DNA from: Ignisphaera cupida
GTDB taxonomy: Archaea; Thermoproteota; Thermoprotei_A; Sulfolobales; Ignisphaeraceae
Direction: 5' to 3'
NCBI RefSeq assembly: GCF_030186535.1
Contig: NZ_JASNVW010000002.1
Location: 268,001-332,000, forward strand
DNA: 64,000 nucleotides
Shown: in pieces, positions 3,565 through 25,567 of the stretch
How positions within the stretch are numbered: the stretch's first letter is position 1
Layout of the letters: every line of letters begins with the position of its first letter
Translations under genes and position numbers: made by a program
The notes under the pieces: model-generated
The model's input: only the letters and a program-made list of their open reading frames with translations
What the model was told of the DNA's origin: nothing
The model's database searches: none

Positions 3565-3588
3565 AGAATCAGTAAATGGAATTGAAAG
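3565..3588 (+). repeat. Solitary CRISPR-like repeat
   Basis: The 16 nt TAAATGGAATTGAAAG (3573-3588) are identical to the end of the repeats at 25080-25109 and 25538-25567. The preceding bases AGAATCAG resemble the GGAATCCAT of those repeats with one base missing. It lies between the convergent KaiC-like and methionine aminopeptidase genes. No second repeat, spacer or leader-like stretch is next to it, so it looks like a relic or a stray copy. Confidence 0.5.
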
Positions 3589-24507: not shown

Positions 24508-24858
24508 ATGATTGTTGTAGAAATAAGAGAAGAAAACATAAGTGTTAGGAGGTGGAGTATAGAGGATATTGCAGAAGCTGTTTACACACTTGTTCAGCTT
24601 ATTCCAATAGGCTGTGTAACAACATATAAAGAAATTGCAAAGGTTTTGGGGATTAGCCCAAGGCTTGTTGCGAAAATATTGAGCAAAAACAAAAAGCTTA
24701 TTGCAATACCTTGTCACAGAGTTGTAAAATCTAATGGAGAACTAGGTGGCTACACATTAAATGGAAAAAATGTGCCAAAGTTTAAAGAAAATCTTCTGAA
24801 ACTTGAAGGCTATACCACATGTAAATACAAATTATCTAGACTTTTAAATATAGAGTAG
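24508..24858 (+). CDS. ogt: O6-methylguanine-DNA methyltransferase (active-site domain only)
   Basis: A 116-residue protein that corresponds to the DNA-binding/active domain of Ogt. IPIGCVTTYKEIAKVLG is the helix-turn-helix with the arginine-finger-adjacent motif, and IPCHRVVKSNGELGGY holds the methyl-accepting cysteine (PCHRV). Full-length archaeal Ogt is about 150-170 residues, so most of the N-terminal domain is missing. It could be an intact short form or an alkyltransferase-like DNA-repair protein, but the Cys is present. It is 6 nt downstream of the M29 peptidase. Confidence 0.9.
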   Translation: MIVVEIREENISVRRWSIEDIAEAVYTLVQLIPIGCVTTYKEIAKVLGISPRLVAKILSKNKKLIAIPCHRVVKSNGELGGYTLNGKNVPKFKENLLKLEGYTTCKYKLSRLLNIE

Positions 24859-24866
24859 TTTCAGAT

Positions 24867-25076
24867 CTACATAAAGAAAGCGTTTCCCCACTCACGGTAC
24901 TTATAATTGGTTTCAATCACTTTTAACTCCGTGGGTGGGGTTGGCCCTAGGCTTGGGCTCACCAGCTTCACCCAAGCCTCATGGGACTCTGTCAAGCCCA
25001 ACGCCACAAGGCTCCCATCTGCAACTCTCACTCTCTCACCCCCTCTCACCGCTAAATCGAAAACAGCCTTGCTTCA
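24867..25076 (-). pseudogene. GC-rich fragment, possibly a transposase C-terminus
   Basis: An open frame of about 69 codons without its own good start (a GTG lies at 25049), ending GNAFFM. Its composition is far richer in G and C than everything around it. The peptide (RGGERVRVADGS ... LGPTPPTELKVIETN) looks like the C-terminal tail of an IS200/IS605-type transposase by my recollection of archaeal tails; no catalytic motif is left to confirm this. It ends 4 bases from the left CRISPR-like repeat. Confidence 0.35.
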
Positions 25077-25079
25077 AGG

Positions 25080-25109
25080 TCTTTCAATTCCATTTAATGG
25101 ATTCCGATC
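25080..25109 (-). CRISPR. Single CRISPR-like repeat, left, minus orientation
   Basis: On the minus strand this ends AAATGGAATTGAAAG, the 3' end style of Sulfolobales and Metallosphaera repeats (GGAATTGAAAG). It is identical over 30 bases to the repeat at 25538-25567. No second repeat follows within 35-45 nt on its downstream side, so no spacer is present. Confidence 0.6.
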
Positions 25110-25242
25110 TTTATTCCCTTGAATGAAATTTTCCGTTGTCGGATTCGAAACTGCTCAATATATTTTGTGTTGAATGGAGTGCAAAAGCTTTTAAGCTGGA
25201 TAGTGCAAGGTTATGGCGATGATCATTATTCATCGATGATCT
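25110..25242 (-). promoter_or_regulatory. Left CRISPR leader-like segment
   Basis: This A/T-rich, non-coding segment lies upstream of the left repeat when read on the minus strand. It shares about three quarters of its positions, ungapped, with the right segment at 25405-25537. Position and conservation are those of a CRISPR leader; function is inferred. Confidence 0.5.
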
Positions 25243-25404
25243 GATTAGATAATCAGTGCAGTGAAGCTATTGCAATGTTGCTTATAAGCTTTGATTTGAA
25301 AGAATAGAGAAAATTATATCCATAGAGAAATTTTATGGTTTGACAAAAGCTTTTAAAGAGTTTATATATCATTGCAATGCCTGCATTGTACTGATGAATT
25401 CATC

Positions 25405-25537
25405 GCACCATCGATGATTTATGATCATAGCCATTGCCTTGGCTTAACAAGCTAAAAAGCTTTTGCACTCCATTCAACATAATTAATAGTGAATAGTTTT
25501 GAATCCAATGATGGAAAATCTCAAATGAGAGAACCAG
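25405..25537 (+). promoter_or_regulatory. Right CRISPR leader-like segment
   Basis: Mirror image of the left segment, reading toward the right repeat. It contains AAAAGCTTTTGCACTCC, also present in the left copy. It lies about 80-210 nt upstream of the threonine-synthase-like gene and could also influence that gene's transcription. Confidence 0.5.
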
Positions 25538-25567
25538 GATCGGAATCCATTAAATGGAATTGAAAGA
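25538..25567 (+). CRISPR. Single CRISPR-like repeat, right, plus orientation
   Basis: It reads GATCGGAATCCATTAAATGG then AATTGAAAGA, with the internal weak dyad CCATTAAATGG and the GAATTGAAAG end common in crenarchaeal type I-A repeats. The downstream sequence to 25618 contains no second copy. Confidence 0.6.

Follow-up and report, generated by a model that had tools for sequence, protein, structure and literature searches.

How new CRISPR arrays come into being, with a leader and a repeat and no history, is an open question. It is raised by a structure of 488 bp at positions 25080-25567 of the window, i.e., of the 64,000-nucleotide stretch of Ignisphaera cupida DNA that was analysed, in which two opposed repeats enclose leader-like sequence. 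A first-pass annotation of the sequence had read it as a pair of empty, divergent arrays, with an element carrying long inverted repeats as the main alternative, and had held that absence of the repeat from any other array, or many scattered copies of the unit, would favour a mobile element. What is this structure, and how did it come to lie in this place? Below, G000 denotes the genome of the window, C1, C2 and so on its contigs, and G001-G009 the related genomes with which it was compared.

Two type I-A array starts, back to back and without spacers

The two arms (25080-25292 and 25355-25567) form an inverted repeat of 213 nt without gaps that is 76% complementary. Their outermost 30 nt are identical (30/30), as had been claimed, and a recount over the first 161 nt returned exactly the 128 matches that had been estimated by eye; a core 19-mer is found three times in the window, against 0.10 matches expected by chance. 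The 30-nt repeat of the first-pass annotation resolves into a repeat proper of 24 nt and about 6 nt made up of one base of flank and the conserved end of the leader. No spacer-repeat unit follows either repeat: there is one repeat per arm and then unrelated flank, such that the structure falls short of an array in the sense of at least two repeats with spacers between them. No tRNA or Rfam feature was found.

A search of the genome that allowed up to three mismatches located the 24-nt repeat 62 times, mostly in arrays (reversed control, 0), and true arrays of this repeat, with spacers of about 40-48 nt, are present on contigs C5, C7 and C10. The left arm matches the array leaders at C10:336, C10:3708, C10:15969 and C5:19807 at 86, 84, 83 and 80%, respectively, over about 308 nt. 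The 131-nt leaders originally delimited are therefore real leaders, but they are longer than had been supposed (Table 1). In a leader-plus-repeat sequence profile, trained on the window arms, the array leaders and four dispersed copies, the left arm of the window unit reaches 139 bits and the right arm 143, compared to 144-153 for the array leaders; since arms and array leaders both belong to the training set, these scores speak to intactness and not to significance. Contig C8 harbors a type I-A gene set (Cas4a/Csa1, Cas1, Cas4, Csa3, Cas6, Cas3 HD, Cas3 helicase, Cas8a, Cas5a, Cas7a), and Cmr (type III-B) proteins sit between arrays on C10. The suggestion that the repeat is of the crenarchaeal type I-A style is thus borne out. 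As in a type I-A array start of crenarchaea, we find the 24-nt repeat ending in GGAATTGAAAG, a homologous leader and the I-A cas genes, Cas1 included; what sets the unit apart is that it has no spacer and that two starts stand back to back within 488 bp. The window unit is two genuine type I-A CRISPR array starts, divergent and spacer-less.

Beyond the palindrome CATTGCAATGCCTGCATTG, the left leader extends into the right one by way of a TATA-like ATATATAAA. A promoter-like block reads CTTTTGCA in both window arms and mostly CTTTTATA in the array leaders, and the GC in this TATA-like block perhaps makes for a weaker promoter in the window. Since the arms keep the repeat, the repeat-proximal leader and the promoter-like block, each is probably still usable as a Cas1-Cas2 adaptation site, with no stored spacer now, and most likely acts as a weak promoter. 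For Saccharolobus solfataricus, specific integration was reported to require a leader of 400 bp or more (PMC5815122).

Table 1. Features of the window unit and its neighbours (window positions), and dispersed leader-repeat copies elsewhere in the genome (contig:position).
Feature	Position	Strand	Remarks
O6-methylguanine-DNA methyltransferase-type DNA-binding domain protein	24508-24858	+	left neighbour, kept in relatives
Decayed miniature IS200/IS605-type copy, from TnpB-like gene end	24870-25070	-	adjoins left repeat; independent neighbour
Left CRISPR repeat, 24 nt, GAATCCATTAAATGGAATTGAAAG	25081-25104	-	same as repeats of true arrays; no spacer beyond
Left CRISPR leader	25105-25388	-	matches array leaders (about 308 nt with repeat)
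Left-arm copy of promoter-like block	25168-25197	-	from leader alignment; putative promoter
Right CRISPR leader	25370-25542	+	matches array leaders at 78-83% over 197 nt including repeat
Palindrome CATTGCAATGCCTGCATTG	25372-25390	.	head-to-head overlap of both leaders; from sequence and alignment
Promoter-like block AGCTAAAAAGCTTTTGCACTCCATTCAACA	25450-25479	+	conserved in leader alignment; putative promoter
Right CRISPR repeat, 24 nt, GAATCCATTAAATGGAATTGAAAG	25543-25566	+	same as left repeat; no spacer beyond
PLP-dependent enzyme (threonine-synthase-like), C-terminal winged helix	25619-27016	+	start 52 nt past right repeat
Dispersed copies in profile training set	C3:134400, C3:133620, C5:88012, C12:1238		124-128 bits
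Dispersed copy	C5:74957		96 bits
Dispersed copy	C8:21065		67 bits
Dispersed copy	C1:17031		60 bits
Dispersed copy	C7:16023		59 bits
Dispersed copy	C2:244437		45 bits
Decayed copies with last 15 nt of repeat intact (15/15)	C5:88012, C3:134400, C3:133620, C12:1238, C5:74957, C8:21186, C7:16147		seven strong copies

The site of the unit in the window

Of the miniature IS200/IS605-type copy beside the left repeat, the genome contains at least six similar counterparts (81-87% identical at the protein level), and many more distant copies are found in G004. A 68-aa open frame left of the unit was considered as a gene split by the unit and rejected, as it belongs to this multicopy IS605/TnpB-derived miniature element. 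At the corresponding site, G005 and G006 carry two other genes and G003 about 155 bp; none of the three offers a clean pre-insertion site for the window copy. By flank reading there is no consistent target duplication at the window unit, the flanks being AAGGT and AAGGC.

Leader-repeat copies are dispersed in the genome

The profile search returned about 20 spacer-less leader(-repeat) copies outside arrays (E 1e-37 to 1e-4; stronger ones in Table 1), the weakest of them at about 20 bits; those below 30 bits may be chance or very old. The unit has a dozen or more scattered relatives in its own genome. In most of them the homology stops exactly at the 3′ end of the repeat, and 13 solitary, exact copies of the repeat's last 15 nt lie outside arrays (reversed control, one match at up to one mismatch). 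Same-genus relatives differ in this respect, as their leaders are mainly those of arrays: the two leaders in G005 and the three in G006 are all at arrays, the five in G009 go with arrays, and no leader match was found in the relatives' loci covering the orthologous intergenic sites tested. A comparable divergent structure without spacers, of 481 bp, is present on contig C73 of G001.

Thus, of the two outcomes that had been named as favouring a mobile element, the absence of the repeat from other arrays does not apply, and the scattered copies are largely there. The reading as empty divergent arrays holds insofar as these are true spacer-less leader-repeat units, and that as an inverted-repeat element insofar as copies are dispersed and one pair was inserted as a unit (see below); it fails as an exclusive alternative. 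Because the spacer-less array starts are themselves dispersed, the two descriptions do not exclude each other. By sequence, we favour a dispersed, element-like CRISPR leader-repeat cassette.

Most copies are one-armed, and the genome has one other clear divergent pair, such that the spread of a whole pair is seen only once. Some leaders have an inverted repeat-like copy at their far end, at about -374 at C5:19807 and -373 at C3:133620, and, in relatives, at -352 and -354 (two leaders of G009) and at -457 (G001); weaker instances are candidates. The window unit stands apart from these in that each of its sides carries a complete leader.

A solitary repeat, AGAATCAGTAAATGGAATTGAAAG, with the last 15 nt exact and no recognisable leader, lies at 3565-3588 (+) of the window just past a gene end, and a leaderless copy of this kind is also found at C5:62773. 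At C1:17031, a gene upstream of an AglB-like gene is inverted with respect to most of the relatives compared, and a decayed leader-repeat unit is located at one breakpoint.

Insertions at two other sites

Two sister copies, both outside the window, occupy sites that are empty in relatives, and these are lineage-specific insertions. The first lies between an upstream ATPase gene and a DUF72 gene (orthologues about 78% identical), where the gap is 262 bp here, with leader and repeat, compared to 40-43 bp in G005 and G006. The order is leader, repeat, ATG, with 0 nt between repeat and start codon.

The second, at C5:74957-75395, is a divergent leader pair of 439 bp, one side of it decayed, between convergent genes for an amino-acid kinase and MCH; in G005 the same two genes are convergent and about 18 bp apart. 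The pair sits in the last codons of the kinase gene and its edges coincide exactly with CRISPR repeat ends, such that the reverse complement of the repeat encodes the kinase end (..LIFQFHF) and its stop. Cutting out the pair up to its two repeat ends brings back YTLIMH and a stop without a change of frame, at the length seen in relatives, whose kinases end in YTTVMC, YTIVMP and YTLLLP. There is no clear target duplication at this site; an AAT/AAT edge match is possible, and no pattern is common to it and the window flanks. The comparison shows insertion of the kinase/MCH pair as a unit, and it is the strongest evidence for such an event.

Array collapse within the genus

Reduction by deletion, the other process that had been considered, does occur in the genus. 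In G005 (C1:1-19000) and G006 (C4:768000-787500), a 10.7-kb inter-array stretch is 97.7% identical. One array locus consists of leader, one repeat and trailer in G005, compared to about 17 repeats with the same trailer in G006, and the neighbouring G005 array retains only its oldest spacer, which is common to G006. An array locus can therefore exist naturally as a leader with one repeat. Around the 10.7-kb segment the outer flanks have changed places, indicating that an inversion took place between the two CRISPR array starts, which are in inverted orientation.

Origin of the window unit

We consider it probable, with some room for doubt, that the window unit is a divergent leader-repeat pair of a dispersed family of repeat-bounded cassettes that insert as units, and most likely a usable adaptation site. 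According to this model, the unit of 486-488 bp comprises a pair of divergent type I-A leaders, both followed by a first repeat but by no spacer; such leader-repeat cassettes would have been inserted at chromosomal sites as units, with the repeat ends as their outer edges, and the window copy would have arrived in the same way. It would have been moved by a recombination activity at the repeat ends, for which Cas1 is a candidate.

Judged by its own sequence, the window unit could be either a cassette that was empty when inserted or a pair of arrays that have both collapsed. That nothing moved, and that two ordinary divergent arrays lost all their spacers when their first and last repeats recombined, is something we regard as rather unlikely, even though repeat recombination and deletion are described for Sulfolobales arrays (PMC4390879) and the two shrunken G005 loci fit such a course. 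It requires total spacer loss in both arms, and it leaves unexplained both the roughly 20 scattered copies and the precise insertion in the last codons of the kinase gene; the copy family and the kinase-site precedent are the reasons for ranking insertion ahead of collapse. It is very improbable that the unit is an artefact in which real spacers were lost during contig building. Contigs C5, C7 and C10 do start or finish exactly on repeats of this family, and arrays are thus incompletely assembled and difficult for the assembler; however, the assembler broke at arrays instead of skipping them, the window copy is internal to a contig of 339 kb and both of its flanks are unique, and the decayed copies elsewhere have diverged leaders and so are no misassembled arrays. 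Hardly any weight falls on a mini-array left behind by a virus or plasmid carrying leader and repeat. Mini-arrays with a leader, and repeats on their own, do occur in viruses of Sulfolobales (PMC6858448), but the repeat of the window unit had no match in IMG/VR and the unit none in phage or plasmid collections, and it is flanked by housekeeping genes and an IS605 remnant.

A further question is whether the copies have been reused for regulation, i.e., whether the promoter in the leader, together with the repeat as a putative site for a Cbp1/Cbp2-like protein, now controls neighbouring genes. Seven strong decayed copies (Table 1) have kept the final 15 nt of the repeat intact while their leaders show 70-81% identity to those of arrays, which is suggestive of constraint on the 3′ end of the repeat, although most of these copies were found by a profile that includes the repeat, and part of their divergence is older than dispersal, given that the source leaders differ by 11-18%. 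The core site of Cbp1 is the 3′ end of the repeat, and Cbp1 also binds repeat-like sites outside CRISPR arrays in Sulfolobales (PMC10883916). Furthermore, several repeats end 0-63 nt upstream of a gene start or have the start codon inside them; the downstream genes encode DUF72, an NTPase (DUF84, ATG inside the repeat), a VapBC-like pair, AglB-like, an ABC ATPase and, in the window, the PLP enzyme. However, a gene start lies up to about 65 nt downstream in only about half of the copies, and about as many are directed at the end of a convergent gene, as expected from random orientation. Promoter reuse is therefore possible for single genes, promoter takeover as a general rule was set aside, and regulatory reuse is an unlikely account of the unit.

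Going beyond the insertion model, a CRISPR leader with a repeat at its edge might be a mobile, non-autonomous element, though we think this doubtful. An integrase, perhaps the host's Cas1-Cas2, would excise or copy the leader-repeat unit and reinsert it precisely at new chromosomal sites; the paired form has two inverted repeats, and its insertion would seed ready-to-fill arrays and, secondarily, new promoters.

Relation to known elements

Like MITE-type elements and REPINs, the cassettes are short, dispersed and non-coding, and in their paired form they carry inverted repeats at both termini, complete in the window unit (30/30) and partial at C5:74957-75395. In the window unit, however, the termini are CRISPR repeats and the interior is CRISPR leader; it showed neither a target duplication nor a link to a transposase, and no transposase sharing its ends was identified. 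Casposons are elements with terminal inverted repeats that are handled by a Cas1 integrase. The likeness to them is the idea of Cas1-handled ends; the window unit differs in having no genes inside and no consistent target duplication, and a role of Cas1 here is speculation. Virus-borne mini-CRISPR arrays and stand-alone repeats (PMC6858448), like solitary repeat units (PMC8616872), are cas-less leader or repeat pieces off the main arrays; compared to the viral mini-arrays, the window unit is chromosomal, spacer-less and repeat-bounded, with many copies per genome and no viral carrier found. Bare dispersed repeat-like motifs, often in ISC1229, also keep the 3′ core of the repeat, whereas here the leader accompanies it. 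The parts are thus known, and their dispersal in the chromosome as repeat-bounded cassettes is apparently undescribed, as our literature search, of partial scope, found no account of it.

Many spacer-less cassettes of graded age in one genome would make it testable whether array starts move as units, and whether decayed units turn into promoters or sites for repeat-binding proteins. With at least two cassettes at sites empty in relatives, one of them with repeat-to-repeat edges, the enzyme that may move them could be sought.

Further observations on leaders and repeats

The array leaders hold a repeat-like motif, GAATCC(A/G)ACAAATGG, about 47 nt upstream of the first repeat (alignment columns 112-124). 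On C10 (locus L057, 3003-3131), a shortened leader with a single repeat follows the last repeat of an array and directly precedes another gene; there, as well as at C7:16139 and C3:69628, the internal motif seems fused to the repeat, with about 47 nt missing. Newly added CRISPR repeats are copies of the first repeat. It is therefore unusual that at locus L058 (19670-19830) the leader-proximal repeat is of the TTAAATGG type, while the remaining repeats of that array are of the AAAAATGG type.
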